From assembly GCF_000092285.1 (NCBI RefSeq), contig NC_014100.1:2170001-2234000 (forward strand): a stretch of DNA of 64,000 nt. Direction: 5' to 3'. A program made the position numbers and the translations under genes. The notes under the pieces were generated by a model. That model ran no database searches. It had not been told where the DNA came from and saw only the letters and a list, made by a program, of their open reading frames with translations. Below, in pieces: positions 36,870-59,425 of the stretch. This DNA is from Caulobacter segnis ATCC 21756 (GTDB lineage Bacteria > Pseudomonadota > Alphaproteobacteria > Caulobacterales > Caulobacteraceae). Numbering within the stretch: position 1 is the stretch's first letter; every line of letters starts with the position of its first letter.

Positions 36870-38204
36870 TTATTCCGCGGCTTGTAGCGCCCTCGAATAC
36901 CGGTTGACCGGGAAATCCAGGCCCAGGCTCTCGCGGAAGGTCGAGCCTTCGTAGTCGGTGCGGAACAGCCCCCTCTGCTGCAGGATCGGCACGACCAGTT
37001 CGACAAAGGCCTCAAGCTGGCCCGGCAGGCTCTCGAACAGCACGAAGCCGTCGGCGCCGCGTTCTTCGAACCATTGCTGCAGGTTGTCGGCGACCTGTTC
37101 CGTCGAGCCGACGAAATGGCCGCGGGGCGTCGCGAAGCGCAGGGCCGTTTGGCGCAGCGTCAGGTCCTCGGCCTTCACAGCCTCGACGATCCGATTGACA
37201 GCGCTCTGGTTGGAGTTGGCCCCGAACTCGGCGGCTTCCAGCGGGAACGGACCGTCGAGGTCATGCTGGGTGAAATCGTACTCGTTGAACGGGCGCGCCA
37301 GCGACGACAGCGCGTTGTCGATCGAAACCAGCTCGATCAGCTCCTGATACTTGGCCTCGGCCTCCTCGGCCGTGCGTCCGACAACGGGCCGCGCGGCGGG
37401 CAATACGTGCAACTGATCGGGATCGCGCCCAAAGGCCGCCGCCCGAGCCTTGATGTCCTTGTAGTAGGCCTGGGCGGCGTCGAGATCCTCGTGCGAGACG
37501 AAGATCGCGTCAGCCCGGCGGGCGGCGAAGGCCTTGCCGTCCTCGGACGCGCCAGCCTGGAAGATCACCGGCTGGCCCTGGGGCGAGCGGCTGATGTTCA
37601 GCGGGCCCTTCACCGAGAAGAACTCGCCCTTGTGGTTCAGGGTGTGCAGCTTGGCCGGATCGAAGAACTGGCCGCCCTTCTTGTCGAAGGTCAGGGCGTC
37701 GTCCTCCCAGGAGTCCCAAAGCCCCTGCACGACATCGAGGTACTCGCCGGCCAGGCGGTAGCGGACGTCGTGGGCGTAGTGTTTCTCGCGGCTGTAGTTG
37801 GCCGCGCTGCCTTCCAGCCACGAGGTGACGACGTTCCAGCCCGCGCGGCCGCCGCTGATGTGATCGAGCGAGGCGAATTGGCGGGCGACGTTAAACGGCT
37901 CGCTGTAGCTGACCGTCAGGGTGCCCACGAGGCCGATGTTGTTGGTCGCGCCCGCCAGGGCCGACAGGATCGTCAGCGGCTCGAAGCGGTTCAGGTAGTG
38001 CGGGCTGGACTTTTCGGTGATGTAGACGCTGTCGGCCACGAACAGGAAGTCGAACTTCCCGGCCTCGGCCACCTGGGCCTGGCGTTTGTAGAACTGGAAG
38101 TTCGTGCTGGCGTTGGGCTGGGCGTCCGGGTGACGCCAGTCGCCCCAGCCGGGGCCGACGCCGTGCAGGATGAAGCCGAGTTTGAGTTGACGTTGGTCAG
38201 TCAT
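36870..38204 (-). CDS. LLM-class FMN-dependent monooxygenase (NtaA/SnaA/DszA type)
   Basis: A 444-residue bacterial-luciferase-fold monooxygenase using reduced FMN. Typical family stretches are [66 protein letters not shown] and [21 protein letters not shown]. The 440-residue length and the [14 protein letters not shown] block fit the NtaA/DszA/SnaA branch, which cleaves C-S or C-N bonds, rather than SsuD. It is the last gene of a six-gene minus-strand operon containing a sulfonate-type binding protein. The FMNH2 could come from the reductase at 58907. The substrate is unknown. Confidence 0.88.
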
Positions 38205-38218
38205 GGAAGATCTCCGAT

Positions 38219-38890
38219 CTATTCGGCGGGAACCAGGGTGATGTCGCGAACGGCCTCGAGCACAGGCTCGGCCTCGGTGCGGACCAGCCAGTCGGGGCTG
38301 ACGTCGACGAAGCGGACGACGCGCTCATGGTCGATGACGACCACGGCCGGCTGGGGCAGCTCCCAGGTTCCGGTGCCCGTGGTCTCTCCGATGAAGGCGC
38401 CCTTGGCGCGCTGGGCCGCCTGGCTGGCCTCGTCCGCGGTGTAGAGGACGCCGAACTGGCGACTGAGATCATTGCCGAGGTCGGAGGCGACCTTGAAGCT
38501 CAGGCCATGGCGGACCTTGATGTCCACGAGCCGCTCGGGAACCTGCGGGCTGACGGCCACCAGCGTCGCCCCCAGATCGCGCAGGGCCGGCGCCAGACGC
38601 TCTTCGTAGTACGGCAGCGCGATGTTGCAGGCCGGGCAGCCGGCGAAGCGGAAGAACACCAGCACCGCCGGGCCGCGCTCCAGCAGGCGCTCCAGCGACA
38701 GGTCGCCGCCCTCGACATCCTTCAGGACGAAGGGGGCGAGACGCTGACCGACCTGGACCCAACGCGTCGGATCGGCGGTCTCCACCAGCGTGCGCCGCTG
38801 GTCGACATTGATCTTCAAGGCGGCCGGATCCCAGGTGCGCTCGCGTTCGGCGTGGAGATCGGCCAGGCGTTCCTTCAGGCTCTTGCTCAT
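38219..38890 (-). CDS. Peroxiredoxin-like (AhpC/TSA) thioredoxin-fold protein
   Basis: A 223-residue protein with an N-terminal helical segment and an AhpC/TSA-type thioredoxin fold. The active site is [19 protein letters not shown] with C85 and C88 (CPAC), a redox-active pair rather than the single peroxidatic cysteine of classical peroxiredoxins. Later parts ([42 protein letters not shown]) fit the family. The ATG overlaps the ferredoxin stop (ATGA), so it is translationally coupled. It may protect flavoenzymes from peroxide, or relay thiol electrons in sulfur metabolism; both are inferences from the operon. Confidence 0.82.
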
Positions 38891-39273
38891 CGGACATCCT
38901 CGGTGCGAGCGGTCTTGGCGGCGGCGGTTTCGATCGCCAGCAGGCGAGCGCGCTCGAAGATCGCTCCCATCCGCCAGTGTTGGTTGGTGTGGGTGGCGGC
39001 GTGCTCGCCCCAGCCGTGGTCGCGGCGGAAGGCGCCCAGCTGTCCGGAGGCCAGGGCCTGGTCGGCGCCGACGCCGATGACCCGATCGACCTCGGGCCAG
39101 ACGAACAGGGCGTCGGCTGGACAATAGAGCTCGCAGAGCAGGCAGGTCTGGCAGTCGACCTGATGGGCGATCACCGCCTTGCCGCCCTCTCCCACCCGCA
39201 GCACGTCGCTGGGGCAGGCCTGGACGCAGTCGCCACAGCCGGTGCAGCGGTCCTCGACGACGACTTCGATCAT
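38887..39273 (-). CDS. Ferredoxin with two 4Fe-4S clusters (AprB-like)
   Basis: A 128-residue iron-sulfur protein. Two cluster motifs are plain: CTGCGDCVQACP (C10, C13, C16, C20) and CQTCLLCELYCP (C41, C44, C47, C51). The C-terminal tail of about 75 residues continues with AFRRDHGWGEHAATHTNQHW. Its start overlaps the stop of the flavoprotein gene (TGATG), as expected for a two-subunit enzyme, and the pairing resembles the alpha/beta subunits of APS reductase. It probably passes electrons to or from that flavoprotein. True APS reductase activity is not shown. Confidence 0.88.
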   Translation of the reverse strand: MIEVVVEDRCTGCGDCVQACPSDVLRVGEGGKAVIAHQVDCQTCLLCELYCPADALFVWPEVDRVIGVGADQALASGQLGAFRRDHGWGEHAATHTNQHWRMGAIFERARLLAIETAAAKTARTEDVR

Positions 39274-40847
39274 CAGGCGACCTCCGCGTGGGCCGGAGCC
39301 GTCTCGAAGCGCGTGAAGACGCGGTCGAGGCCTTGCGCCCGCTGGCGACTGGCCAGCCGCGCATCGGGCGCCGGCGCGTCCTCGCGGCGGTGCATTCCTC
39401 GGCTTTCGCGGCGGGCCAGAGCCGCGGCCTTGCTCCAGCGCCCGGCCGCCACCAACGCGGCGGCCTCCCGAAGGCGCAGCGCCCCCCTGCCCTGCGCCTG
39501 GCCATGATCGGCCAGTTCGCGCCAGACGCTGTCCAGCCGCTCCAGGGAGGCCGTGAGCGCCTCGCCGCGCCGGAAGATGTTCTTGTCGTAGGCGTTGAGC
39601 TCTTCGCGCACCGCCTGGACCGCGCCAGCCGTATCGAAATCGCGGGCCTTGCGACGAGGCGAGAGGCCGGCCTGCCCCGTCGCGATCACGAGAGCGTCGG
39701 CGCGGGCTCCGAGCGCTCTGCCCTTCCGCGCGGCCGCCGCGCCCGCCCACTGCCCTGATGACAGGGCCCAGGACGAATTGACCGCGCCGCCGCCAGAGAC
39801 GGCGCCGGTGACGAGCTCGCGACTGGCGGCGTCGCCAGCGACATAGAGGCCTGGGACAACCGTCTGGCAGTCCTCGTCGTCGACCCGGAGCCCGCCGATC
39901 CCGCGCACGGTGCCTTCGGCATGCAGGGTCACCTCGAAGCGATCGCGATACGCGTCGATCCCCATCCGATCGAACGGCAGGACAAAGTTCGGCTGCACCT
40001 CCGGCATGATCGCCCGGATGTCTTCGGGCACGCGATCCAGACGGCAGAAGAGCGGCCCCTTCAGCAGCGCGCGGGCCAGATGCGGGGTGACGTCCGGCCC
40101 ATTCGGAATGTCGAGCTCGTTGTCGTCGGCGTCGAACCAGCGCGCGAAGCTGTAGGCCATCGACCGGGCCATGTTCGTGCCGGCGACGGACGGGGTGTAG
40201 TAGTTCGAGAACTCCATTCCGGAGAGGTCGGCGCCTGCCTCCGCCCCCATCAGCAAGCCATCACCGGTGTTGGTCGCCGAGCCCAGCAGGCGGGAGGCGA
40301 AAGCGACGCCACCGGTGGCGATGACGACCGCGCCCGCCCGGATGGTCCAGGGCGTCTCGCCGCGCAGGGCCAGCCCCGTGGCGCCGGCGATCGAGCCGTC
40401 GCCATGCCGCAGCAGCTGCAGCGCCGGGTGGTGGTCCAGAATGCGGGCTCCGGACGCCAAGGCGTAGGCGCGCATCGCCACCATGTATTCAGGCCCGCGT
40501 AAGGCGCGGTACTGGACCTGACCCGTCTCGTCGGTCGAGAAATCGTAGTAGTCGGAAAGCTTGGGCAGGCTGCTCCAGGTAAGATCAAGGATGCGCCGCA
40601 TCCACTCGGGGTCGCCCAGCCCCAAGGCGCGTTGCACGCGGTCGGCGACGGCGGCCTCGCGCCGCTCGGGCGGGACCCACCAGTGGCCGGGACCGGCGGT
40701 GGCGGTGACGCCGCTGGTCCCGCAATAGCCCTTGTCGACCAGGACGACGTCCGCGCCTTCGCGAGCCGCCGCCACGGCCGCCCACGCGCCGGCCAGGCCG
40801 CCGCCGATCACCAGGACGTTCGTCGCGAGGGACAGCGGGTCGCTCAT
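39273..40847 (-). CDS. FAD-dependent oxidoreductase, fumarate reductase/AprA-like
   Basis: A 524-residue flavoprotein of the succinate dehydrogenase/fumarate reductase/APS reductase group. It opens with TNVLVIGGGLAGAWAAVAAA for FAD and has the covalent-flavin-type region DKGYCGTSGVTATAGPGHWW, IATGGVAFASRLLGSATNTGDGL, and PGLYVAGDAASRELVTGAVSGGGAVNSSWAL near the second FAD contact. The ATG at 40847 overlaps the binding-protein stop (ATGA), and the end overlaps the ferredoxin start. The paired arrangement with a 2x4Fe-4S protein suggests an AprAB-like complex acting on sulfite or an organic sulfur compound; the reaction is unknown. Confidence 0.85.
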   Translation of the reverse strand: MSDPLSLATNVLVIGGGLAGAWAAVAAAREGADVVLVDKGYCGTSGVTATAGPGHWWVPPERREAAVADRVQRALGLGDPEWMRRILDLTWSSLPKLSDYYDFSTDETGQVQYRALRGPEYMVAMRAYALASGARILDHHPALQLLRHGDGSIAGATGLALRGETPWTIRAGAVVIATGGVAFASRLLGSATNTGDGLLMGAEAGADLSGMEFSNYYTPSVAGTNMARSMAYSFARWFDADDNELDIPNGPDVTPHLARALLKGPLFCRLDRVPEDIRAIMPEVQPNFVLPFDRMGIDAYRDRFEVTLHAEGTVRGIGGLRVDDEDCQTVVPGLYVAGDAASRELVTGAVSGGGAVNSSWALSSGQWAGAAAARKGRALGARADALVIATGQAGLSPRRKARDFDTAGAVQAVREELNAYDKNIFRRGEALTASLERLDSVWRELADHGQAQGRGALRLREAAALVAAGRWSKAAALARRESRGMHRREDAPAPDARLASRQRAQGLDRVFTRFETAPAHAEVA

Positions 40848-41791
40848 GACAGCGTCCCGTTGAACGAAGCGTCGAACGCGCCGGCCGGATCGCGCGAACT
40901 GGTGATTGCGCCCGCCGCCCGGAAACGGTCGAGCACCGCTGTGGCCTCGGTGACCGAGTCCTGCCCAATCGGCGTCGGCAGCAGCCGGTAGTTTCGCACC
41001 GTGTTGAGCGCGATCTCGTCCGAAAGCCCCGTCTCCCGCGAGAGCACCTTGGCGAAGGCCTCGGGATTGGCGGCCGCCCATCGCCGCGCCTTTGCCAGGC
41101 GGCGCAGGAAATCCTCGACCTGGGGGCGCTTGTCGGCGATGGCCCGCTCGCTGGCGGCCTCGTAGCCGAAGCCGCTGATCACCCCCGTTCCATCGGCCAG
41201 GATCCGGGCCGCGTCATGCAATCTGGCGAGAGCGATGTACGAGCCCCAGGTGACCCACGCGTCGATCGATCCCGCCGTGAACGCGGCCTTGGCGTCGCCG
41301 GGCGTCAGATAGACCAGAGTGACGTCGGCCGGCTTCAGCCCGGCGTTCTCCAGCACCCGCAGCAGCAGATGGTGGCCGATCGAGCCTCGGCCCGTAGCGA
41401 TCTTCCTGCCTCGCAGGTCGGCCGGCGTCCTGATCGGCGAGTCCTTGCGGACCAGGATCGCCGTTCCGCCGCCGCCACTCTTGCCAGCCTGGACGGCCTT
41501 GATCTTGGCGCCGCCGGCGTAGGCGAACAGGAACGGCGCATCACCGGCTTCGCCAAGGTCCACGGCGCCCGCCGACAAGGCTTCGAGAAGCGGCGCGGCG
41601 GCAGGGAATTCGCTCCACTCGATCCGGTACGGAGCGCCCTCCAGCGCGCCGGACGCGAGCAGGACCGCCTTGGTGCCGCCGCGCTGGCTGCCGACCTTCA
41701 GAACCGGTTGGCCGTCGCCCTTGGCGCAGGCCGCGAGCGAGGCGGCGAGCCCCCCGAGGGCGAGACCGGCGATGAGCTGACGTCTGTCCAT
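40844..41791 (-). CDS. Sulfonate-type ABC transporter binding lipoprotein
   Basis: A 315-residue periplasmic binding protein of the SsuA/NMT1 class. The start MDRRQLIAGLALGGLAASLAAC combines an RR pair with a lipobox ending at C22, suggesting a Tat-exported lipoprotein. Core features are VLKVGSQRGGTKAVLLASG, SAGAVDLGEAGDAPFLFA, LRGRKIATGRGSIGHHLLLRVLENAGL and FTAGSIDAWVTWGSYIA. It lies ten bases after the TonB receptor gene and overlaps the flavoprotein gene, so it is the periplasmic step between receptor and permease. No permease is in this operon; SsuC/SsuB at 47001-48610 are the likely partners. Confidence 0.88.
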   Translation of the reverse strand: MDRRQLIAGLALGGLAASLAACAKGDGQPVLKVGSQRGGTKAVLLASGALEGAPYRIEWSEFPAAAPLLEALSAGAVDLGEAGDAPFLFAYAGGAKIKAVQAGKSGGGGTAILVRKDSPIRTPADLRGRKIATGRGSIGHHLLLRVLENAGLKPADVTLVYLTPGDAKAAFTAGSIDAWVTWGSYIALARLHDAARILADGTGVISGFGYEAASERAIADKRPQVEDFLRRLAKARRWAAANPEAFAKVLSRETGLSDEIALNTVRNYRLLPTPIGQDSVTEATAVLDRFRAAGAITSSRDPAGAFDASFNGTLS

Positions 41792-41801: not shown

Positions 41802-44447
41802 TCAGAACCGCTGAGTCAGGCGGGCGTAGTAGTAGCCGCCGGTGATGCCGAAGGGCGAGAAGGTCCCGAATTGTCCCGTGCCCTGGTCGGCGTTGATGAT
41901 CCCGATCTTGTCCGGATGCTTGTCGAACAGGTTGTTGGCGCCGATGGCGACGCTGGTGGTCTCGCGCACCTGCCAGCCGATATCGAGGTCGGTGATCCAC
42001 TTCGGACTGTAGGTGCGGTCGAGGCTCGCCGAGGTTCCCGCTTCGGTGTAGCGGCCATGGCGGGTGTTGCGCAGGCCGACATTCCAGGCGCCGCGAAGCC
42101 ATTGCGCGCCGAGGATGATCTTTTCGCGCGGCGTGCCGACGGTCAGATCAGCGATCTTCTGGCGGTCGAACAGCACGAGGTTCGGATTGACCGCCTTGAG
42201 GACCGCCGGAGTCGCCTTCAGCTTGGTAATCTTGGTCTTGTTGAAGGCGTAGGCGGCGTTGAGGTTCAAGCGCCCGAACTCGCCGAGGTTCACCCCATAG
42301 TCAGCAACGAAATCGGTCCCAGTCGTCCGGGTCGAGACGGCGTTGGTGTAATAGGTCGCCGTCAGGCCTTGCGGGAACCGCGCCAGCAGCGGCGCCAGAT
42401 CCGCGCGCGACGCCAGTTGGGTCACGGAGAGATCCAGGTTGCTTGTGTCGACGATCCGGTCGTCGATATCGATCTGGTAGGAGTCCAGTGTCAGCCTCAG
42501 GCCCGCGAACGGCTCGGCGGTCAGGCCGAAGCTGTAGTTGGTCGACTTCTCCGGTTTCAGCGGTTCGGCGCCCAGGGCCTTGGCCTCGGCGCTGTCGGTG
42601 CGCAGGACCTTGGTCGGGAAGGTCAGATATTCCCCAGGCGTGCACGGCGCGCCGCGGAAGATGTTGTTGGGCGCGGCCGCGCAGAGGCTGCCGTTGATCG
42701 TCGAGGTCGCGAAGATGGTTTGGCCCAGCGACGGGGCGCGGAAGCCGTTGCTGACCGTGGCGCGGACGGCGTAGCCCGGCAGGAACTCCCAACGCGTCGT
42801 CAGCTTGCCGCTGGTGGTGTCCCCGACGCCCTTGCCATAGCGCTCGTAGCGTCCCGCGACGCCGACGTACCAGGTCTTCGTCAGGTTGGTCCCGAGATCG
42901 ACATAGGCGGCGCCGCTGTTGCGGCTGGCCGAGCCGGCGTCCTCGGGCGCGGTGCCGGCGTAGGAGGCCAGACCCGGGTTCGGACGCAGGCCCGCGAAGG
43001 GCTGTCCTGCCGGGATCACATAGTCGCCGACGATATAGGACGCCTCATCCCCCGCCTCGATAAGGAATCGCTCGTAGCGGTGCTCGAGACCCCAGGAGAC
43101 CTGCAGTGGGTTTCTAAGCCAGCCGGTGATCTCGCGCGTCACGTCGAGATTGTTGGTCCACTGACGGAACTCGTGCGTGGAGAGATGGAAATAGGTCGGG
43201 CTGGACGGGCCTAGAGTAGCGTTCAGCGTGTTTTGCCCGTCGAGCTGAGCGTGATCCTGCGCCAACGTGGTCGAGAGGTCCCAAGACCAGCCGGCCGTTT
43301 CGCCGCGCGCGCCGAAGCTGCTCTGGAAATCGAGCTCGAAGATGCGGCGCAGCGCGTTGAAGCCGTCGGGATAGACCTCGGGCAGCGAATTGCGGTTAAG
43401 CGGCCTTCCCGCCGTCACGCCGGCAACTGGCGCCAGGTTGGGCAGGAAGCTGCCGGTGTTCTTCTTCGACGATCGATGGCTGAGTGTGCCCGAAGCGTAG
43501 AGGTTCAGGTCGCGCCAAGGCAGTTCGGCGTTGTAGGACGCCGCCAGAATATCCTCTTCGCCCGGCCCATAGCTCTTGCCCCAATAGTAGCGGTCGGCGG
43601 TGGCGTCGCGCGGATCGGGCGTCACCGTGGTCACGCCGTTCACGGTCGTCACCGTCGGCTGGTAGATGTACTGGGCGCGCGAGGGGACGGACCGGCTGGC
43701 GGCCTCGTTGTTCTTCCAGTTCAGGGCCAGATGCAGGAAGCCGCCGTTGTCGCCCAACGGCCGACCCCAGTTCAGCGTGGCCGACCGCGTGTCGCCATCG
43801 CCAAGATAGTTCTGGCCGCCGGTGTAGCTGAACGAGCGCTCATCGACGCCGTCCTTCAGGATGATGTTCACGACGCCGGCGATCGCGTCGGAGCCGTATT
43901 GCGCCGAGGCGCCATCGCGCAGCACCTCGATCCGCTCGATGGCCGAGGCCGGGATGAAGTCGAGATCGACCGGAGCCCCGCCGCGCCCGACGCGGGCGAG
44001 GTTGTTGATCAGCGCCGTCGTGTGGCGGCGCTTGCCGTTGACCAGGAACAGGGCCTGGTCGCCGTTCAAGCCGCGCAAGGTGATGGCGCGCACCGTCCAC
44101 GAGGTGCCGCCGCCATTGATGCCCGGCAGATTGAACGACGGGATCAGGGTGTTGAGGACTTCCTTCAACCCGACCTTGCCGGTCGTCAGAAGCTGCTCGC
44201 CGCCAATCACGTCCACGGGCGCTGGACTGTCGGCGACGGTGCGCCGCGCGCCGCGCACGCCGGTGACGATCAGGCTTTCGACGGCGTTGGTTCCCTCGGC
44301 GTCGGCGGTCGCAGCCGGACCCGTCGTGGTGGTGTCAGCGGCGTAGCCTGGCCCGGCGATGGCGGCGACAGAGGCGCAGGCCAAAAGCGCGGGGCGCCAT
44401 CGAGACGTGTTGAAGCGTTCAGGCAAGATCAAAGAACTATCCCCCAC
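41802..44447 (-). CDS. TonB-dependent receptor of the organosulfur island (881 aa)
   Basis: An outer-membrane receptor heading the minus-strand sulfur operon. Signal region ends AIAGPGYAAD; the plug has ESLIVTGVRGARRTVADSPAPVDVIGGEQL and IEVLRDGASAQYGSDAIAGVVNIIL, and the barrel ends YYARLTQRF. GTG at 44447 is taken as the start, but TTG codons at 44432 or 44426 behind the GGGGGA stretch are also possible. Linkage to a sulfonate-binding lipoprotein, AprAB-like proteins and an LLM monooxygenase suggests import of an organosulfur compound across the outer membrane. Confidence 0.9.
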   Translation of the reverse strand: MGDSSLILPERFNTSRWRPALLACASVAAIAGPGYAADTTTTGPAATADAEGTNAVESLIVTGVRGARRTVADSPAPVDVIGGEQLLTTGKVGLKEVLNTLIPSFNLPGINGGGTSWTVRAITLRGLNGDQALFLVNGKRRHTTALINNLARVGRGGAPVDLDFIPASAIERIEVLRDGASAQYGSDAIAGVVNIILKDGVDERSFSYTGGQNYLGDGDTRSATLNWGRPLGDNGGFLHLALNWKNNEAASRSVPSRAQYIYQPTVTTVNGVTTVTPDPRDATADRYYWGKSYGPGEEDILAASYNAELPWRDLNLYASGTLSHRSSKKNTGSFLPNLAPVAGVTAGRPLNRNSLPEVYPDGFNALRRIFELDFQSSFGARGETAGWSWDLSTTLAQDHAQLDGQNTLNATLGPSSPTYFHLSTHEFRQWTNNLDVTREITGWLRNPLQVSWGLEHRYERFLIEAGDEASYIVGDYVIPAGQPFAGLRPNPGLASYAGTAPEDAGSASRNSGAAYVDLGTNLTKTWYVGVAGRYERYGKGVGDTTSGKLTTRWEFLPGYAVRATVSNGFRAPSLGQTIFATSTINGSLCAAAPNNIFRGAPCTPGEYLTFPTKVLRTDSAEAKALGAEPLKPEKSTNYSFGLTAEPFAGLRLTLDSYQIDIDDRIVDTSNLDLSVTQLASRADLAPLLARFPQGLTATYYTNAVSTRTTGTDFVADYGVNLGEFGRLNLNAAYAFNKTKITKLKATPAVLKAVNPNLVLFDRQKIADLTVGTPREKIILGAQWLRGAWNVGLRNTRHGRYTEAGTSASLDRTYSPKWITDLDIGWQVRETTSVAIGANNLFDKHPDKIGIINADQGTGQFGTFSPFGITGGYYYARLTQRF

Positions 44448-44552
44448 CCGCTCCGTGCGGGCGTTCCATGTTCGTCGGATGTCAGCTCCGGCCCTTGGAG
44501 CGTCGGCAGGGCGACCATGGCGCGGGCCGCCAGGCCTCGCGATGGAGTATTT

Positions 44553-44570
44553 CTCTGAGCAAAATCAGAG
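44553..44570. promoter_or_regulatory. Inverted repeat in AT-rich divergent region
   Basis: CTCTGA-N6-TCAGAG followed by TTTTATATAT. It lies between the divergent TonB receptor (start 44447, -) and FAD protein (start 44687, +) genes, near the 15-bp shared motif. It could be a regulator site or part of a promoter. Confidence 0.4.
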
Positions 44571-44591
44571 TTTTATATATCTTTCCTAGTC

Positions 44592-51576: not shown

Positions 51577-51610
51577 TGACCGGCTTTTCCCTTTCCCGCC
51601 GCGCGACCTG

Positions 51611-52576
51611 ATGGCCGGCGGCCTGTCGATCGCCGGACTTTCCATGGCGGGCCTCACTGCCTGCTCGCCCCAAAAGGACGCCAAGTCCGGCGACCTGTCG
51701 AACCTGACGCTGCGGGTGGCGACCTATCGCGGCAATCCCGAAAGCTTCTTCGCCGAGGCCGGCGTCGCCGACCCGCCCTACAAGCTAGCGCGCACCCAAT
51801 TCGCCGGCGGCAACCTGATCGTCGAGGCGATCAACGCCCGCGCGCTCGACTTCGGCGGGATGAGCGAGATTCCGCCGATCTTCGTCGCGGGGCACCCGGG
51901 CAACCAGGTGAGGATCGTCGGCGTGCTGCGCAGCGACGTGAACAATCAGGTCGTGCTGCTGCCCAAGGGCTCCCCGGTCCAGGACTTCAGCCAACTGAAG
52001 GGTAAGCGCGTCGGCTATGTGAAGGCGACCACGTCGCACTACATCCTGCTGCGCCTGCTGAACAAGGCGGGGCTGACTTGGGCTGACATCACGCCCGTGG
52101 CCCTATCGCCGCAGGACGGCTTGGCCGCCTTCCAGAGCGGCGCTCTCGACGCCTGGATCATCTATGGCGTGATCGTCTACCAGGCGCGGGAGGCCGGGGC
52201 GCGGGTTCTGACCACGGCCCAGGGGATCCTCTCGGGCAACTACCTGATCACGGCCGCCCAGGACGCGCTGGACGACCCGGCGCGTCTGGCGGCGATCGGC
52301 GACTACGTGAGCCGCTACCGCAAGGTGTTCGACTGGATCAACGCCGACGGCGAGCGCTGGGCGCGCGTGCGGGCCCAGGCCACGGGCGTCAGCCAAGCCT
52401 ATTACGAGCAGGAATTCCGAGAACGCAGCACCGCTTCGATCCTTGAACCGATCAGCGAGGCGGCGATCGCCTCTCAGCAGGCCGTGGCCGACACCTTCGC
52501 GGCCGCGAAGGTCATTCCAGCGCGTGTCGAGGTGAAGTCACTCTGGAATGATCGCCTGACGCCCTACCTCAAGTAG
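51611..52576 (+). CDS. Second sulfonate-type binding lipoprotein, leader apparently frameshifted
   Basis: A periplasmic binding protein of the SsuA/NMT1 class, 321 residues from the ATG at 51611. Core features include LTLRVATYRGNPESFFAEAG, ARALDFGGMSEIPPIFVAG, LKGKRVGYVKATTSHYILLRLL and FQSGALDAWIIYG. The short start lacks a ribosome site and a basic leader. An ATG at 51576, overlapping the aldolase stop, reads MTGFSLSRR and then goes out of frame; removing two bases from the GCGCG run near 51600-51604 would join it to DLMAGGLSIAGLSMAGLTAC, a Tat-lipoprotein leader like that of the sister protein at 40844. This may be a two-base insertion mutation or a sequence error. Confidence 0.85.
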   Translation: MAGGLSIAGLSMAGLTACSPQKDAKSGDLSNLTLRVATYRGNPESFFAEAGVADPPYKLARTQFAGGNLIVEAINARALDFGGMSEIPPIFVAGHPGNQVRIVGVLRSDVNNQVVLLPKGSPVQDFSQLKGKRVGYVKATTSHYILLRLLNKAGLTWADITPVALSPQDGLAAFQSGALDAWIIYGVIVYQAREAGARVLTTAQGILSGNYLITAAQDALDDPARLAAIGDYVSRYRKVFDWINADGERWARVRAQATGVSQAYYEQEFRERSTASILEPISEAAIASQQAVADTFAAAKVIPARVEVKSLWNDRLTPYLK

Positions 52577-52704: not shown

Positions 52705-54882
52705 ATGCGTAATCGCCCTCTGCGAAATCTTCTACTTTTGAGCTCGGGCCTCGCCGCTTTCGGAACGGCGAAGGCCGCTGAGCCGACACCCGCCGTCGAC
52801 GGCGCCGCGCCGGCCGTCGAGCAGGTCATCGTCACCGCCGAACGGCGAGCGACCGATCTGCAGAAGACCGCCATCGCCATTTCGGCCTTCGGCCAGCAGG
52901 TGCTCGCCGATCGCAAGATCGACAACATCCGCGACCTCTCCGGCCAGATCCCGAACCTGTCGATCAGCCGGGTCACGATCAGCCACACCACCCAGACCTA
53001 CGCCCTGCGCGGCGTCGGCGAGGCCGATCCGATCCAGGAGCCGGTGCTGGCCGTCTATGTCGATGACGTCTACATCCCGCGCCAGATCGGTTCGATGGTC
53101 GAGTTCAACGACCTGGAGCGGGTCGAGGTGCTGCGCGGCCCGCAAGGCACGCTCTATGGCCGCAACTCCAGCGCTGGGGCCCTACGCGTCATCACTCGCG
53201 ATCCGGGCCAGACCCTGCGCGCGAAGGCCGAGGTGGGCCTGGGTAACTACGGCGCGGTCGACGTCCGCGCGCTGATCGAAGGGCCGCTGGTCTCGGACAA
53301 ACTCTCGGGCAGCTTCTCGTACATCCACCACAAGCGCGACGGCGTCACCTTCAACCCGACACTGAACCACGACGTCAACCGCATCGACCTCGACGCCTTC
53401 AGGGCCAAGCTGCGATGGACGCCGACCGACCGGCTGGACGCCTTGCTGACGGTCAACGCCCTGCGCGATCGCAGCGACACGCGCAGCTATATCCCGGTCA
53501 AGCAGCCCGGCGGCGCGTTCCGCAAGGATCGGTCTTACTCTGAGGTCGAGCCCGTCCAGGACCTCGACCAGGCCAGCGTCTCGCTGCGCGTGCAGTATGA
53601 CCTGACCGAACAATTGAAGCTGAAGTCGATCAGCGCCTATGGCGGCTTCAACCTCAACCCCGTCGCCTACGACAACGACGGCGAAGCGGCGCTGATCCAG
53701 AAGAACCTGATCCATTACAACGATCAGTACGCCACCCAGGAACTACAGCTGAACGGCGACTTTGGCGCTCTGACCTTCACCAGCGGGCTCTTCTATCTGC
53801 ACGAGCGCTTCTTCGTGCAGCGTGACGGCTACAGCCGCCGCAACGCCCAGGCGACCGACCCGACGGTGACGCCCGGCAACTACAACTTCGCCCGGGCCCA
53901 CAACATCACCAACACCGACGCCTACGCCGTCTTCGGCGAGGCGACCTGGAAGGCGACCGACCGCCTCTCGCTGACCGGCGGCCTGCGCTGGACCAACGAG
54001 AAGAAGGAATTCGTCTTCGACAACAAGGGCCTGAACCTGGCGGGCCAGGTCGTCTCGCAGTCGATCAGGGGCAAGGCCGACAAGACCTGGTCAGCAATCA
54101 CGCCCAAGGTCTCGGCCCAGTTCCAGTGGACGCCGGACGTCCTGCAGTACGTCAGCTATTCGAAGGGCTTCAAGTCGGGCGGCTTCGACAACCGCGCCAC
54201 GCGGCTGGATCTCGCCACCCTGCCATTCGCGCCCGAGGACGTGACCACCTATGAGACGGGCCTGAAGACCCAGCTCCTAGACCAGCGGCTGCGGGCCAAT
54301 CTGGCGGCCTTCTACAACGACTATCAGGACCTGCAGGTCTCGTTCTACGATCCGGCCTATGTCGGCAGCCGCCGAGGCAACGCGGGCAAGGCCCACACCT
54401 ATGGCGTCGAGCTCGAGACCGACGCGCGCCCGACCGAGCGTCTGGGCGCCCAGTTTAGCGTCGGATGGCTTTACGCGATCTATGACGACTACAAGGGCGC
54501 CGGCGGCGCCGGGGTGAACGCCGATGGCAATCGCCTGCTGAACTCGCCCCGCTGGAGCGTTTCGGGCGGCGTGACCTACGACCCGGACCTCGACATCCCA
54601 GGCTCGCTTCGCCTTGGCTTGAACGCCCAGTGGCAGAGCGGGATCGTCACCAGCGCCACGCCGGCTGCCGGCGGCCAGAACGACATCCCCTCGCAAGGCT
54701 TCCTGAACGGCGTCGCGACCTGGACCACGCCCGACCCGCGGTGGGCCGTCAGCTTGTCGGTCCGCAACATCCTCAATTCGCAGAAGGCGGTCAGCTCCAC
54801 CTACACGCCGTCGACAGGGATCTACCTGCTGAACTTCGCCGATCCCCGGACCTACCTCGTCACCCTCAAATACGTGCTGTAA
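52705..54882 (+). CDS. TonB-dependent receptor (725 aa) of the third sulfur operon
   Basis: An outer-membrane receptor. Signal peptide residues 1-25 end FGTAKAAEP; the plug runs from VEQVIVTAERRATDLQKTAIAISAF through LRGVGEADPIQEPVLAVYVDDVYIPRQIG to VEVLRGPQGTLYGRNSSAGALRVIT, and the barrel ends LVTLKYVL. This shorter type is common among receptors for non-siderophore ligands. GGGGA precedes the ATG. It is followed within three bases by a thiol dioxygenase and then a rhodanese, GST, SsuD and flavin reductase, so an organosulfur ligand is likely. It differs from the receptor at 41802, suggesting two substrates or two forms of one. Confidence 0.92.
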   Translation: MRNRPLRNLLLLSSGLAAFGTAKAAEPTPAVDGAAPAVEQVIVTAERRATDLQKTAIAISAFGQQVLADRKIDNIRDLSGQIPNLSISRVTISHTTQTYALRGVGEADPIQEPVLAVYVDDVYIPRQIGSMVEFNDLERVEVLRGPQGTLYGRNSSAGALRVITRDPGQTLRAKAEVGLGNYGAVDVRALIEGPLVSDKLSGSFSYIHHKRDGVTFNPTLNHDVNRIDLDAFRAKLRWTPTDRLDALLTVNALRDRSDTRSYIPVKQPGGAFRKDRSYSEVEPVQDLDQASVSLRVQYDLTEQLKLKSISAYGGFNLNPVAYDNDGEAALIQKNLIHYNDQYATQELQLNGDFGALTFTSGLFYLHERFFVQRDGYSRRNAQATDPTVTPGNYNFARAHNITNTDAYAVFGEATWKATDRLSLTGGLRWTNEKKEFVFDNKGLNLAGQVVSQSIRGKADKTWSAITPKVSAQFQWTPDVLQYVSYSKGFKSGGFDNRATRLDLATLPFAPEDVTTYETGLKTQLLDQRLRANLAAFYNDYQDLQVSFYDPAYVGSRRGNAGKAHTYGVELETDARPTERLGAQFSVGWLYAIYDDYKGAGGAGVNADGNRLLNSPRWSVSGGVTYDPDLDIPGSLRLGLNAQWQSGIVTSATPAAGGQNDIPSQGFLNGVATWTTPDPRWAVSLSVRNILNSQKAVSSTYTPSTGIYLLNFADPRTYLVTLKYVL

Positions 54883-54885: not shown

Positions 54886-55497
54886 ATGAGCCAGCATCGC
54901 CCTCATCGCCTGTCCGACTTCGTCGCCGACCTCTCCGCGCTGCTGGATCGCACCGGCGACGAGGCGGTTATCCTGCGCGAGGGCGGCGCGTTGCTGGCCG
55001 AACTCGTGGCCCAGGACGACTGGCTGCCCGAAGCGCAAAGCCTGCCGGATCCGACGCGCTACCAGCAGTATCTGCTGCACCGTGACCCGGCCGGGCGGTT
55101 CTCGGTGGTCAGCTTCGTCTGGGGACCGGGGCAAGCCACGCCGGTCCACGACCATACGGTCTGGGGCCTGATTGGCGTGCTTCGGGGCGCCGAGCTGTCG
55201 CAAGCCTATGACCTGACCGACGGCGCGCTGACCGGCGTCGGTCCTGTCCATCGCTTGGAGCCCGGCCAGGTTGAGGCCGTGTCGCCCACCGTCGGCGACA
55301 TCCACCGCGTCGCCAACGCCTTCGAGGACCGGACCTCAATCAGCATCCACGTCTACGGCGCCGACATCGGGACGGTGAAGCGCTCGACCTACGACGCCAA
55401 CGGCAAGCCCAAGACCTTCATTTCCGGCTACGCCGACGTCCCGCCGCCCCTCCTGTTCGATCGCGCTAGCGCCCTGGCCTACGGAGCCGCCGAATGA
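54886..55497 (+). CDS. Cysteine dioxygenase-family thiol dioxygenase
   Basis: A 203-residue cupin of the cysteine dioxygenase/3-mercaptopropionate dioxygenase family, which adds O2 to a thiol to make a sulfinate using non-haem iron. The three iron ligands appear as H88 and H90 in TPVHDHTVWG and H140 in VGDIHRVANAF; H155 in SISIHVYG is also conserved. The ATG lies three bases after the receptor stop, and the end overlaps the rhodanese gene. Whether cysteine, 3-mercaptopropionate or another thiol is used cannot be seen. Confidence 0.87.
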   Translation: MSQHRPHRLSDFVADLSALLDRTGDEAVILREGGALLAELVAQDDWLPEAQSLPDPTRYQQYLLHRDPAGRFSVVSFVWGPGQATPVHDHTVWGLIGVLRGAELSQAYDLTDGALTGVGPVHRLEPGQVEAVSPTVGDIHRVANAFEDRTSISIHVYGADIGTVKRSTYDANGKPKTFISGYADVPPPLLFDRASALAYGAAE

Positions 55498-57071
55498 CCC
55501 TGCCCCTGATCACGCCGCACGAGGTGCGCCGCGACCTGATCGCCCGGCGCGAGATCGCCCTCCTGGACCTGCGCGAGGAAGACCCGTTCGCCAAGGCCCA
55601 CCCGCTGTTCGCCTCGCAACTGCCGCTCAGCCGGCTGGAGATCGAGATCCTCGACCGCGTTCCCCGCAAGGCGACCAAGATCGTGCTCTACGACGACGCC
55701 GAGGGGCTCGTGGCGCCGGCGGCCGAGCGGCTCGCGGCGCTGGGCTACACGAACGTTCACACCCTGCATGGCGGCCTCGCCGGCTGGCGCGCGGCGGGGT
55801 ACGAGCTGTTCCAGGACGTCAACTCCTACAGTAAGGCGTTCGGCGAGCTGGTCGAGGCGCGCCGCCACACGCCCTCGCTACCGGCCCAAGAGGTCAAGGC
55901 GCGGATCGACGCCAAGGCCGACCAGGTGATCCTCGACGCCCGCCGGTTCGAGGAATACGCCACCATGAGCATTCCCGGCGGCATCAACACGCCCGGCGCG
56001 GAGCTGGTGCTGCGAGCGCGCGAGCTGGCGCCGGACCCGTCCACGACCATCATCGTCAACTGCGCCGGCCGCACGCGGAGCCTGATCGGCGCCCAGTCGC
56101 TGGTGAACGCGGGCCTGCCCAACCCCATCTTCGCCCTGCGCAATGGCACCATCGGCTGGACCCTGGCCCAGCAGACGCTCGAGCATGGCCAAAGCCGCAA
56201 GTTCCCCAGCGTGGGCGAGCAGACACTGGAGGAGGCTCGCGCTCGCGCCCACGACGTGGCCTATCGCGCCGGCGTGCGCAGGGTGGACGCCCAAGGGCTG
56301 GCCGATCTGGCCAAGGACATCGACCGCACCCTTTATCGCTTCGATGTCCGGACGCCCGACGAATACGTCGCCGGCCACATTCCAGGCTTCCGCTCGGCGC
56401 CCGGTGGCCAGCTCGTGCAGGAGACCGACGTCTTCGCGCCCGTCCGAGGCGGCCGGATTGTGCTGGCCGATGACCTCGGTCCCCGCGCCGACATGACGGC
56501 CTCGTGGCTCGCCCAACTGGGTTGGGAGGTCTATGTCCTGGAAGGCGGCTTCGGCGGCGCGCTGGAGCGCGGCCTCTGGACGTCCAGCCTTCCCGCCCTC
56601 CCCGAGGTCGAGACCATATCGCCGCGCGACCTGGCTCAAGCCATCGCCGACGACGCGGTCGTGGTCATCGACCTCGCGCCCAGTCCGGTTCACCGCAAAG
56701 GCCACGTTCCAGGGGCCTGGTTCGCGATCCGCGCGCAACTGGATGTCGCGGTGACTCAGGTCCCGCCCAACACGACCATCGTCCTGACATCGCCCGACGG
56801 CGCCCTGGCGACTTTGGCCGCGCCCGAGTTGGAAGCCCTCACCGATAGGCCTGTCCGAGTCCTGGCCGGCGGTACGGAGGCTTGGATCGCCGCCGGTCGC
56901 GCCGTCGAAACGGGCCTGGTCCGCCCCGCCAACGCCCCAACGGACATCTACAAGCGCCCCTACGAGGGCACGGACAACGCCGCCGAAGCCATGCAGGCCT
57001 ACCTCGACTGGGAATTTGGCCTGGTCGACCAGCTGGCCCGCGACGGCACGCACGGCTTCTACGTGATCTGA
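55494..57071 (+). CDS. Four-domain rhodanese protein
   Basis: A 525-residue protein made of four rhodanese-like domains, roughly residues 5-105, 130-235, 265-375 and 385-490. Only the second has an active-site cysteine, C190 in IIVNCAGRTRS (CAGRTRS loop). The corresponding positions in the others read VLYDDAEG, IVLADDLGPRADM and IVLTSPDGALA, so they are probably structural or binding modules. No signal peptide is seen, so it should be cytoplasmic. The ATG overlaps the dioxygenase stop (ATGA). Rhodaneses carry sulfane sulfur on the cysteine, so it may take sulfur released by the dioxygenase or monooxygenase steps. Confidence 0.88.
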   Translation: MTLPLITPHEVRRDLIARREIALLDLREEDPFAKAHPLFASQLPLSRLEIEILDRVPRKATKIVLYDDAEGLVAPAAERLAALGYTNVHTLHGGLAGWRAAGYELFQDVNSYSKAFGELVEARRHTPSLPAQEVKARIDAKADQVILDARRFEEYATMSIPGGINTPGAELVLRARELAPDPSTTIIVNCAGRTRSLIGAQSLVNAGLPNPIFALRNGTIGWTLAQQTLEHGQSRKFPSVGEQTLEEARARAHDVAYRAGVRRVDAQGLADLAKDIDRTLYRFDVRTPDEYVAGHIPGFRSAPGGQLVQETDVFAPVRGGRIVLADDLGPRADMTASWLAQLGWEVYVLEGGFGGALERGLWTSSLPALPEVETISPRDLAQAIADDAVVVIDLAPSPVHRKGHVPGAWFAIRAQLDVAVTQVPPNTTIVLTSPDGALATLAAPELEALTDRPVRVLAGGTEAWIAAGRAVETGLVRPANAPTDIYKRPYEGTDNAAEAMQAYLDWEFGLVDQLARDGTHGFYVI

Positions 57072-57079
57072 GGCTGGCG

Positions 57080-57718
57080 ATGACCCTGCAACTCTATTTC
57101 GCGCCCGGCGCATCGTCTCTCGCGCCCCTGGTGGCGCTCGAAGAACTCGACATTCCCTATGTCGGGCATCGCTTGGATCTCGCCGCCGGCGATCAGCGCA
57201 AGCCCGAATACCTAAAGGTCAATCCGCGCGGTCGCGTGCCGACCCTCGTGGTCGACGGCCAGCCGGTGACCGAGGTTCTGGCGATCCTGACCTACCTCGC
57301 CCACCGCTACCCGCACAGCGAGCTCCTGCCGCTGGCCGACCCGTTGAACCTGGCCAAGGCCTACGAGGTGATGAGCTGGTTCGCCAGCACGGTGCATGTC
57401 GCCTTCGCCCAAATCGCCCGGCCGGAGCGCTACGCCGACGACGAGGCGACCAAGGCCGCTCTGGCCACGCCCGGAGAAGCCCGGTTCGCGCGCACGCTCA
57501 CCGACATCGAGCACCTCGCGCGAGGCCCCGGCCCCTGGCTGCTGGGCGACGCCTTCAGCGTTGTCGACGCCTACGCGCTGGTCATCTGGCGTTGGGCGGA
57601 GCGGCGATCGATCGACACCGCCCTCTATCCGGCCTGGAGCGCCAAGGCCGCCCGCGCCTTCGCGCGTCCCTCGGTCGTGCGCGCCCTGCGCAAGGAGGCC
57701 GCGCCCGTCACCGCCTGA
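57080..57718 (+). CDS. Glutathione S-transferase family protein
   Basis: A 212-residue GST. The thioredoxin-like N-domain is MTLQLYFAPGASSLAPLVALEELDIPY with the glutathione-binding region GRVPTLVVDGQPVTEVLAILTYLAHRY, and the helical C-domain has WLLGDAFSVVDAYALVIWRW. The serine pair in PGASSLAP fits the beta-class bacterial GSTs. It lies eight bases after the rhodanese stop. In a sulfur operon it may cleave a thioether or release glutathione from a conjugate; the reaction is inferred only from context. Confidence 0.88.
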   Translation: MTLQLYFAPGASSLAPLVALEELDIPYVGHRLDLAAGDQRKPEYLKVNPRGRVPTLVVDGQPVTEVLAILTYLAHRYPHSELLPLADPLNLAKAYEVMSWFASTVHVAFAQIARPERYADDEATKAALATPGEARFARTLTDIEHLARGPGPWLLGDAFSVVDAYALVIWRWAERRSIDTALYPAWSAKAARAFARPSVVRALRKEAAPVTA

Positions 57719-57808: not shown

Positions 57809-58903
57809 ATGAGCGTCGAATTCATCGGTTTCATCGGCACGCAACACGCCTCCGAGATCCACCCGCCGACCGGCCCGGCCATCGACGTGGCCTATGTCGA
57901 AAAGACCGCCCGCGTTCACGAGGAAGGCGGCTTCGACCGCGCGCTGGTGGCCTTCCACTCGACGGGGCCGGAAAGCCAGTTGGTCGTGGCGCACGCCGCC
58001 TCGGTGACCAAGCGCCTGAACTTCATGATCGCCCACCGGCCCGGCTTCACCCAACCGACCCTGGCGGCGCGCCAGCTGGCAACGCTGGACCACTTCACCG
58101 GCGGCCGCGTAGCGGTGCACATCATCACCGGCGGCTCGGACGAGGAACTCGCCAAGGACGGCGACCACCTCACCAAGGACGAGCGCTACGCCCGCACCAG
58201 CGAGTACCTGGACATCGTCCGCGCCGAGTGGACGGGCGACAAGCCGTTCGACTACGAGGGCAAGTACTACAAGGTCGACCAGGGCTTCGGCGCGGTGAAG
58301 CCGCTGCAGGCGCCGCACATTCCGATCTATTTCGGCGGCTCGTCCGACGCCGCTATCCCGGTCGCCGGTAAGCACGCAGACATCTTCGCGCTGTGGGGCG
58401 AAACCCAGGCGCAAGTGCGCGAGACGATCGCCCGGGTCCGCGCGGCGGCCGCCAAGCACGGTCGCCAGGTCCGGTTCTCGTTGTCGCTGCGCCCCGTGAT
58501 CGCCGATACGGAGGAAGCCGCCTGGAAGCGTGCGGACGAGATCGTCGAGCGCACCAAGGCTCTACGCGAAGCGGCTGGCCTGCCGACCAGCGGCCATCGC
58601 CCGCCCAACGCCGGTTCGCAGCGCCTGCTCGACGCCGCCGCCCAGGGCTCGCGCCTGGACAAGCGGCTATGGACCGGCGTCGCGGCCGTCACCGGCGCGC
58701 AGGGCAACTCCACGGGCCTGGTCGGCACGCCCGAACAGGTCGCCGAGAGCCTGCTCGACTATTACGATCTGGGCGTCTCGACCTTCCTGATCCGGGGCTT
58801 CGACCCGGTCGAGGACGCGATCGGCTATGTCCGCGATCTGATCCCGCTGGTCCGCCAGCTGGTCGCCGAGCGTGACGCCAACCCGACGGCCGTGGCGAGC
58901 TGA
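57809..58903 (+). CDS. ssuD: Alkanesulfonate-type FMNH2-dependent monooxygenase
   Basis: A 364-residue luciferase-fold monooxygenase close to SsuD: EFIGFIGTQHASEIHPPTG, FMIAHRPGFTQPTLAARQLATLDHFTGGRVAVHIITGGSD, DEYARTSEYL-like DERYARTSEYLDIV, and HIPIYFGGSSDAAIPVAGKHADIFALWGE (shown in shorter pieces: PIYFGGSSDAAIPVAG, HADIFALWGE). SsuD releases sulfite from alkanesulfonates. A GGAGA site precedes the ATG, 90 bases after the GST stop. The flavin reductase gene follows by three bases, giving the usual two-component pair. The identity to SsuD rather than another LLM sulfonate monooxygenase is likely but not certain. Confidence 0.87.
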   Translation: MSVEFIGFIGTQHASEIHPPTGPAIDVAYVEKTARVHEEGGFDRALVAFHSTGPESQLVVAHAASVTKRLNFMIAHRPGFTQPTLAARQLATLDHFTGGRVAVHIITGGSDEELAKDGDHLTKDERYARTSEYLDIVRAEWTGDKPFDYEGKYYKVDQGFGAVKPLQAPHIPIYFGGSSDAAIPVAGKHADIFALWGETQAQVRETIARVRAAAAKHGRQVRFSLSLRPVIADTEEAAWKRADEIVERTKALREAAGLPTSGHRPPNAGSQRLLDAAAQGSRLDKRLWTGVAAVTGAQGNSTGLVGTPEQVAESLLDYYDLGVSTFLIRGFDPVEDAIGYVRDLIPLVRQLVAERDANPTAVAS

Positions 58904-58906
58904 GCC

Positions 58907-59425
58907 ATGGCCTACGACGCCGCCTCGCCATCGCGGTCCGCCGCGCCAGTCCAGGCTGACTTCCCGAAGCAGGCCGACTTCAAGGAGGTCCTAGCCCACT
59001 TGGCGGGCGGCGTCGCCATCATCTCCTGCTGGGACGAGGATACGCCGCGCGGTCTCCTCGTCAGCTCGATCACGGGGCTCTCGGTCAAGCCGCCTCGGTT
59101 CCTATTCTGCGTCCGCAAGGAGGCGGGGTGCCACGACGCCTTGGTGGGCGCGACCGAGTGCGGCGTGACCTTGCTCAGCGCCGACGATCAGGACGAGGCT
59201 TGGCGCTACGCCAGCTCCGCTCGCGCGTCAGAGCGCTTTTCGCCTGAACGCTGGCGCCTGTCGCCGGAGGCGCCGCCTGCCTATCGCGGCGGGCTTGCGA
59301 GTGCGCGCTGCGTCATCGACAGCATCGCCGACGCCGGAACGCACTCGATCCTCATCGTGACGGCGACGGAAAGCTCGCTCTCCCCCGCCCAGCCGCTTGT
59401 GGCCTGGAACAGGGGCTTCCTCTAG
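58907..59425 (+). CDS. Flavin reductase partner of the monooxygenases
   Basis: A 172-residue flavin reductase-domain protein (HpaC-like, not the flavodoxin-like SsuE). It contains FKEVLAHLAGGVAIIS, GLLVSSITGLSVKPPRFLFCVRKE and GVTLLSADDQDEAWRYAS, with a split barrel fold expected. It supplies reduced FMN to the SsuD-like enzyme encoded three bases upstream and perhaps to the two other flavin monooxygenases of the island. The ATG follows a weak ribosome site. A strong hairpin after its stop closes the operon. Confidence 0.85.
   Translation: MAYDAASPSRSAAPVQADFPKQADFKEVLAHLAGGVAIISCWDEDTPRGLLVSSITGLSVKPPRFLFCVRKEAGCHDALVGATECGVTLLSADDQDEAWRYASSARASERFSPERWRLSPEAPPAYRGGLASARCVIDSIADAGTHSILIVTATESSLSPAQPLVAWNRGFL

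Follow-up and report, generated by a model that had tools for sequence, protein, structure and literature searches.

Known systems and the island

The closest precedents that we found for the gene island described here are the asf genes and the gene pair for 3-mercaptopropionate dioxygenase (3MDO) and a rhodanese; neither had been named in an earlier reading made from the DNA letters alone (below, the sequence-only reading). The island occupies positions 36870–59425 of the window, by which we mean the whole 64,000-nucleotide stretch analysed (Caulobacter segnis ATCC 21756, contig NC_014100.1, positions 2,170,001 to 2,234,000), part of a single-contig genome of 4,655,622 bases. Like asfRABC of Pseudomonas putida S-313 and AsfA/AsfB of Cupriavidus metallidurans, it encodes a flavoprotein and a ferredoxin beside a protein of the SsuA type, and includes a LysR gene. 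According to PMC4267179, asfA mutants of P. putida S-313 lose the use of aromatic but not aliphatic sulfonates, and asfA serves as a marker gene for the release of organic soil sulfur, most soil sulfur being organic. The 3mdo-tst pair of pseudomonads (PA2602-PA2603; P. protegens c14110-c14100) likewise has a 3MDO-type dioxygenase gene followed by a sulfurtransferase gene, and deletion of 3mdo is described as raising 3-mercaptopropionate (3-MPA) (PMC12947264). The island pair differs in sitting in an SsuCB operon with a luciferase-like monooxygenase (LLM) gene named LLMb here, a flavin reductase gene, a glutathione S-transferase (GST) gene and a TonB-dependent receptor (TBDR) gene.

More distant likenesses concern single parts of the island. 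The ssuEADCB genes of Escherichia coli and msu of Pseudomonas share with it the SsuABC-type transport and the SsuD/MsuD fold of LLMb. The 3,3'-dithiodipropionate catabolism of Advenella mimigardefordensis (Mdo, Acd) shares a 3MDO near an acyl-CoA-dehydrogenase-fold enzyme and a LysR gene (PMC5373536). Plasmid regions of Sphingobium TomTYG65, Novosphingobium KACC 22771, Microvirga and Nostoc combine an Asf pair with further sulfur genes, LLM monooxygenases among them; in those of Sphingobium and Novosphingobium, homologues of 3MDO, rhodanese, LLMb, SsuB, SsuC and LysR are present as well. These regions differ from the island in that the Sphingobium region has an annotated arylsulfatase and taurine dioxygenase and the Nostoc region an annotated ssuD, and in that no 3MDO was seen in the Microvirga or Nostoc stretches.

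Our analysis points to a mosaic organosulfur-scavenging island, in which more than one compound class probably feeds sulfur and at least two substrate arms probably run on one inner-membrane transporter. Two modules of the island resemble known systems, and the modules are separable.

Gene content

We assigned the island proteins to families with Pfam and NCBIfam profile models. The sequence-only reading had described 19 genes around one LysR gene, and exactly these 20 genes were placed there:

36870–38204, minus strand: LLMa, NtaA/DmoA-family FMN-dependent monooxygenase (TIGR03860; nearest solved structure YtnJ/MoxC)
38219–38890, minus strand: peroxiredoxin-like protein (AhpC/TSA; PF00578, 70.7 bits)
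38887–39273, minus strand: AsfB-type dicluster ferredoxin (Fer4 models; 42% to the ferredoxin of C. metallidurans NC_007974.2)
39273–40847, minus strand: AsfA-type FAD flavoprotein (PF00890; 46% to the C. metallidurans flavoprotein)
40844–41791, minus strand: SBP1, SsuA-family substrate-binding protein (TIGR01728; 2x26)
41802–44447, minus strand: TBDR1, TonB-dependent receptor (PF00593, PF07715)
44687–46039, plus strand: FAD/NAD(P)-binding oxidoreductase (PF13454, 120.8 bits)
46036–46872, minus strand: LysR-type regulator, divergent from ssuCB (PF00126, PF03466)
46950–47810, plus strand: SsuC-type permease (NF008470, 269.4 bits, under the cut-off of 347)
47807–48610, plus strand: SsuB-type ATPase (NF008420, 246.5 bits, under the cut-off of 395)
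48607–49773, plus strand: SfnB-like acyl-CoA-dehydrogenase-fold flavoenzyme (PF02770)
49770–50720, plus strand: D-2-hydroxyacid dehydrogenase (PF02826, 158.9 bits)
50734–51576, plus strand: class II aldolase/adducin family protein (NF004855, 411 bits, cut-off 255)
51611–52576, plus strand: SBP2, SsuA-like substrate-binding protein (TIGR01728)
52705–54882, plus strand: TBDR2, TonB-dependent receptor (PF00593, PF07715)
54886–55497, plus strand: 3MDO-type thiol dioxygenase (matches to solved chains)
55494–57071, plus strand: four-domain rhodanese, one domain with a cysteine (C190; four PF00581 stretches)
57080–57718, plus strand: GST family protein (PF02798)
57809–58903, plus strand: LLMb, SsuD/MsuD-fold monooxygenase (36% to E. 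coli SsuD)
58907–59425, plus strand: flavin reductase, presumed partner of the monooxygenases (PF01613, 85.7 bits)

The left operon, from TBDR1 to LLMa, has only overlaps or gaps within 14 bp. It is followed by the FAD/NAD(P)-binding gene and the LysR gene, and then by the right operon, from SsuC to the flavin reductase, in which the wider spacings precede 51611 (34 bp), 52705 (128 bp) and 57809 (90 bp). The families that the sequence-only reading had named were recovered by the profile models: two TonB receptors, two SsuA-type proteins, SsuC, SsuB, two luciferase-like monooxygenases, the acyl-CoA-dehydrogenase-fold enzyme, flavin reductase, FAD flavoprotein with ferredoxin, thiol dioxygenase, four-domain rhodanese, GST, D-2-hydroxyacid dehydrogenase and class II aldolase. 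The peroxiredoxin and the FAD/NAD(P)-binding protein come in addition to that list. This family content, together with the conserved linkage of sulfur genes in other taxa, supports the proposal of organosulfur import and desulfuration.

The arms of the island come and go separately in relatives

An order-wide survey covered 61 genomes including that of the window, with different E-value limits for 3MDO and AsfA. 3MDO was found in 16 of the 61 and AsfA in 14, all of them among the 16; the two genomes with 3MDO and no AsfA are incomplete assemblies (70% and 85%). Within the 37 genomes of the same genus this co-occurrence had a hypergeometric probability of 2e-8, uncorrected for kinship. In 8 of 13 Caulobacter relatives, the Asf arm and the core share a contig and lie within 17 kb of each other. 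They are 636 kb apart in relative G006 and 291 kb apart in G002, and they occupy different long contigs in G011; in G020 and G003, AsfA is on a short contig.

Neither SsuC nor SsuB had a match in the Asf stretch of G006 (17 kb); SBP1 there would therefore need a transporter encoded elsewhere, most simply the core SsuCB. In the window, SBP1 and SBP2 probably share one SsuCB, since the Asf arm has no permease or ATPase gene of its own and, among the 61 genomes, was found only where the core occurs.

The cassette of SfnB-like, dehydrogenase, aldolase, SBP2 and TBDR2 genes is also separable. It is missing as a whole in loci L004, L015, L016 and L019, in which the dioxygenase match starts 7–38 bases past the SsuB match, and three Sphingomonas loci show the same gap, with the dioxygenase 75–111 bases past SsuB. 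The contigs of L012 and L020 end within the locus and are uninformative on the cassette. Outside the order, the Asf arm and the 3MDO core occur together again on the Sphingobium and Novosphingobium plasmids, and the Microvirga stretch combines the Asf arm with SfnB-like and LLMb genes.

The Asf arm and its monooxygenase neighbour

The gene for the AsfA-type flavoprotein is directly followed by that for the AsfB-type ferredoxin, the arrangement that characterizes asf. On the second replicon of C. metallidurans (NC_007974.2), one such pair matches the window pair (46% and 42%); a second, weaker flavoprotein match on it is Sdh-like, and a back-search of the window genome with the C. metallidurans flavoprotein listed a single gene, the window AsfA. 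We infer from PMC2864759, and not from annotation, that the matching pair is Rmet_4334/5; the identification stays at this level because no LysR gene was seen beside the pair. Unlike in asf, the island LysR is not adjacent to asfAB, being separated from it by SBP1, TBDR1 and the FAD gene, and the Asf stretch of G006 had no match to the window LysR. The label 'AprAB-like' in the sequence-only reading proved loose: an adenosine 5'-phosphosulfate (APS) reductase was rejected at 40.2 bits to the alpha-subunit model (NF005331, cut-off 557), and similarity to solved succinate dehydrogenase/fumarate reductase (Sdh/Frd) proteins is weak (best 48.8 bits). The pair is of the AsfA/AsfB type.

In an AsfA tree, taken without the P. 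putida S-313 protein, the window group and five plasmid operons (rhizobial and Paracoccus ones included) form a supported clade (96/94), apart from the C. metallidurans protein; in the window group, unlike in asf, AsfA often has a TonB receptor, a peroxiredoxin and an LLMa-type monooxygenase as its companions. Also outside the clade are the proteins of Sphingobium, Novosphingobium and Azospirillum B510, although LLMa-type genes neighbour them too. A very long outgroup branch makes the position of the root in this tree uncertain. A class-wide AsfA search at E <= 1e-110 found at least 2 of 385 genomes, that of the window included; at most three candidates per genome were scored, and the count may be too low.

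SBP1 belongs to the SsuA family (TIGR01728, 215.1 bits, cut-off 163.5; 2x26, 148.3 bits) and has, by reading, a lipoprotein-like leader. TBDR1 adjoins SBP1-AsfA in all 13 Caulobacter AsfA loci fetched, and the whole run TBDR1-SBP1-AsfA-ferredoxin-peroxiredoxin is kept in each of them.

LLMa falls into the NtaA/DmoA family (TIGR03860, 557.1 bits against a cut-off of 279.7), with YtnJ/MoxC as its closest solved structure (1yw1, 536.7 bits). We examined 16 of the 59 AsfA-bearing plasmid records found, all 16 non-Caulobacterales. An LLMa-type gene (at least 45% identity) lay within 8 kb in 9 of 9 loci with an AsfA at 50% or more, and in 1 of 7 with an AsfA below 50%; for LLMa in the Caulobacterales AsfA stretches the count was 11 of 16. 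In L016 and L092–L094 the LLMa gene is a 67–68% relative on the opposite side of TBDR1. The gene order LLM, binding protein, permease, ATPase, AsfA, AsfB recurs in five plasmids, four by annotation and L110 by tblastn. The scan of the AsfA stretches used a looser threshold, at which most stretches gave a match to the ABC-ATPase control, and L084 a match to one dehydratase control; SsuB matches in these stretches therefore mean little on their own.

Two plasmid neighbourhoods may be added. In the Paracoccus plasmids L111 (9792–10601) and L114 (9819–10656), genes for a cupin protein and a rhodanese-like protein come right after AsfA-AsfB, a smaller echo of the dioxygenase-rhodanese pair of the island. 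In Nostoc edaphicum pNe_5 (L120, 6897–9838), a D-2-hydroxyacid dehydrogenase gene immediately precedes AsfA-AsfB, in a region that also holds LLM, acyl-CoA dehydrogenase and ssuD genes.

A conserved core of 3MDO, rhodanese and LLMb

Enzymes of the 3MDO type are Gln-type thiol dioxygenases, with Gln replacing Arg, no Cys-Tyr crosslink and three His. The island dioxygenase contains no cysteine, and its Q61, H88, H90, H140 and Y157 are kept in at least 97% of 92 homologues; by the general features just given it is predicted to be of the Gln 3MDO type. Its scores were 238.8–245.9 bits with four bacterial chains, 3uss/4tlf and 4wvz among them; two of the four carry the name 3MDO, and the two best-scoring ones the label cysteine dioxygenase type I. 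Mercaptosuccinate dioxygenase reached 42.6 bits, and other cysteine dioxygenase chains at most 34.2. The only cysteine of the rhodanese, C190, lies in the CAGRTR loop of domain 2 and is conserved in 79 of 80 homologues. Domain 4 has a serine at position 433 here and a cysteine in 50 of the 80; a second domain may therefore be active in other members. The passage of sulfur through thiol and sulfinate forms, as the sequence-only reading had it, finds support only at the 3MDO step, and its sulfane step hangs on the one rhodanese domain.

The comparison of gene neighbourhoods that the same reading had proposed brought out a conserved core of 3MDO, rhodanese and LLMb. We counted linkage in the best 80 of 537 3MDO relatives (named loci), over up to 10 kb on each side, some stretches ending at contig ends; the closest loci are from Caulobacter, the best 3MDO showing 95% identity. 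A rhodanese gene lies near 3MDO in 22/22 Caulobacterales, 48/50 Burkholderiales, 4/4 Sphingomonas, 2/3 gammaproteobacterial and 1/1 myxobacterial loci; the corresponding counts for LLMb are 21/22, 45/50, 3/4, 2/3 and 1/1. This linkage is not due to chance, because 27 other window genes, run as controls against the 80 loci, gave a single match, to an ABC ATPase.

Around the core the content varies. The 22 Caulobacterales loci have LysR in 20, GST in 20, TBDR2 in 15 and the FAD gene in 13. Matches to GST, flavin reductase and hydroxyacid dehydrogenase were confined to Caulobacterales among the 80 loci (GST, 0/50 in Burkholderiales). In Burkholderiales, SfnB-like, aldolase, LLMb and SBP2 genes occur together in 34 of the 50 loci, and none of the four in 5. 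The Sphingomonas loci keep the core, with SfnB-like, dehydrogenase and aldolase genes each at 0/4.

LLMb and the SfnB-like enzyme

LLMb and E. coli SsuD agree at 124 of 348 positions (36% identity). At what we take to be the sulfonate-site residues of SsuD (C54, R226, H228, R297, Y331 and H333), LLMb has G, S226, R228, T295, F331 and P333. We surveyed 109 LLM matches that cover at least 80% of LLMb in the loci examined, counting matches and not genomes because some stretches are duplicated (for instance, L004 = L088). All 87 matches at 55% identity or more to LLMb, the window protein included, have S226, R228, F331 and P333. The other 22 are below 40%, none falling between 40% and 55%, and five of them show R, H, R, Y and H, including E. 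coli SsuD and the annotated Nostoc ssuD. LLMb also stays under the cut-off of the SsuD model (TIGR03565, 242.7 of 518.2 bits). We rejected an SsuD identity on the residues, though the fold fits: a search with the AlphaFold model (predicted local distance difference test score, pLDDT, 92.7) found MsuD best, followed by SsuD and SfnG.

For the SfnB-like enzyme the model (pLDDT 84.1) found 5z8t and 5gj7 best, at 35% identity, and the open-licence literature yielded no function for these. The two structure models did not separate substrates. The label 'SfnB/DszC-like' of the sequence-only reading lies far under both curated cut-offs (TIGR04022 for SfnB, 105.6 of 430.9 bits; DszC model, 49.4 of 850). 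An Advenella-like desulfination via CoA was rejected as well: the enzyme reached 99.8 of 600 bits on the desulfinase model NF042439, and the 20 proteins include no CoA ligase or transferase family. L023, L075 and L053 have a second LLMb-type gene, placed immediately after the SfnB-like one, an order that suggests that the SfnB-like enzyme and LLMb act in turn.

A probable mosaic and its alternatives

In the mosaic that we favour, TBDR1 and TBDR2 would carry substrates across the outer membrane, and SBP1 and SBP2 would hand them to the shared SsuCB. AsfA-AsfB would supply electrons for a flavin-dependent C–S cleavage, probably by LLMa, of an aromatic or otherwise complex sulfonate or an oxidised thioether. 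In the core arm, 3MDO would oxidise a carboxylated thiol akin to 3-mercaptopropionate, giving a sulfinate from which sulfite is released, LLMb and the flavin reductase may cleave a C–S bond before or after this step, and the rhodanese would handle sulfane sulfur. In MsuC-MsuD and DszC-DszA, sulfur is oxidised first and cleavage follows; the SfnB-like enzyme could similarly oxidise sulfur first, ahead of LLMb, with the dehydrogenase and aldolase processing the leftover carbon. Control by sulfur is presumed; for sulfur starvation and the core enzymes we found nothing in the open-licence literature, an absence that is weak evidence.

Several observations weigh against this reading. LLMa was not found in 5 of the 16 Caulobacterales AsfA stretches (L023, L095, L096, L097 and L099), most of which end near its expected place. 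SBP2 stays below the SsuA-family cut-off (TIGR01728, 139.1 bits against 163.5), 3MDO was not found in the Microvirga stretch, and the motif ATAAGACNCNTGAGG (at most two mismatches; see below) was not found before TBDR1 in any of 13 Caulobacter AsfA stretches. The window AsfA shares no more than 46% identity with its C. metallidurans counterpart, which lies outside the window clade of the tree, and arylsulfonate is therefore a lead only. LLMb is without the SsuD pocket residues, and a plain sulfonate may accordingly not be its substrate. The P. protegens sulfurtransferase mutant is described as having no significant effect on 3-MPA (PMC12947264).

Several sulfur sources nevertheless fit better than the one large substrate of the sequence-only reading. 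A single linear pathway, with both receptors importing one larger sulfur compound, one flavin oxygenase cleaving it and the remaining enzymes processing the pieces, would explain why all genes lie around one LysR gene here and why the Asf arm and core co-occur so strongly in the genus, within the limits of the uncorrected value. We consider it improbable: left arm, core and SfnB-TBDR2 cassette are unlinked or separately missing in relatives, each import arm has a receptor and a binding protein of its own, the nearest known systems (asf and 3MDO) act on different compound classes, and the Sphingomonas core does without the SfnB-like enzyme, dehydrogenase and aldolase. Also unlikely, if a little less so, is a combination of a true asf arm for aryl sulfonates with a thioether or S-methyl branch, in which LLMb would demethylate a thioether, for instance 3-methylthiopropionate, to give 3-mercaptopropionate for oxidation by 3MDO. 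The loss of the sulfonate-site residues and the regular linkage of LLMb to 3MDO agree with it, as do the 3-MPA sources suggested in PMC12947264 (dimethylsulfoniopropionate, methionine and homocysteine); the folds nearest to LLMb are nonetheless MsuD, SsuD and then SfnG, with the thioether enzyme DmoA absent among the best 50 matches.

Least likely of the three is a Cmo-like salvage of cysteine or glutathione S-conjugates, with GST and the YtnJ-like LLMa as key enzymes. Among solved structures LLMa is closest to YtnJ, presumably the same protein as CmoJ. CmoJ cleaves N-acetyl-S-alkylcysteine sulfoxides (PMC10863075), but no acetyltransferase or deacetylase family appeared among the matches of the 20 island proteins, GST sits in another operon than LLMa, and its linkage was seen in Caulobacterales only, with none in the 50 Burkholderiales loci.

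Within the favoured mosaic, we advance one more specific proposal tentatively, considering it possible and rather unlikely to hold in full. LLMb would found a C–S-cleaving subfamily with a re-built pocket (S226/R228/F331/P333); together with the SfnB-like enzyme and 3MDO it would form a relay of three oxygenases, producing an aldehyde and sulfite from a carboxylated thiol or thioether. LLMa would be the C–S-breaking oxygenase partner of this kind of AsfAB, from which it would receive electrons. More broadly, the island points to a likely oxygenase for one kind of AsfAB, joins TonB receptors with sulfonate-type transport and places 3MDO in a consistent genomic context of sulfur acquisition, and LLMb marks an LLM subfamily that can be mistaken for SsuD by its fold despite a different pocket. 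The parts of most interest are the LLMb subfamily and the recurrent pairing of AsfAB with a monooxygenase.

Promoter motifs, the SBP2 leader and flanking genes

The motif ATAAGACNCNTGAGG has a 13-of-15 match in both divergent promoter regions, at 44592–44606 and 46896–46910. These are its only perfect matches in the genome, the pattern itself having been drawn from them, and two or more matches with at most two mismatches arose in 6 of 100 window shuffles. Of the 16 named Caulobacter loci that show the LysR-ssuC spacer, 12 have the copy there, the exceptions being L004, L015, L016 and L019. We dropped a shared LysR operator, or one regulon, on the ground that the motif is not conserved before TBDR1 in relatives. 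At 44540–44590 of the window, GATATATAA followed by CTCTGA-N6-TCAGAG is kept in L004 (= L088), L090 and L099, where TBDR1 has a true intergenic region, with the right arm of the palindrome altered in L090 and L099; this block is a possible promoter or operator.

A twin-arginine leader of SBP2 (window 51575–51640) is in frame in all 8 relatives' loci examined. In the window genome it is in another frame, with a stop just before the SBP2 start, and SBP2 must therefore start here at the inner ATG, with a lipoprotein-like leader. Either the gene has truly changed in this genome or its sequence contains an error.

Just left of the island, positions 24272–36559 hold alpha-galactosidase-type and sugar-acid-dehydratase-type genes and, by reading only, an arabinofuranosidase-like gene, a TonB receptor and GntR- and LacI-type genes, which make a sugar-use block likely. 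Domains encoded at 224–8502 (aminotransferase, periplasmic-binding-protein-2, ABC ATPase, CobB/CobQ-type amidotransferase and CobT-type phosphoribosyltransferase) probably mark a cobalamin cluster.

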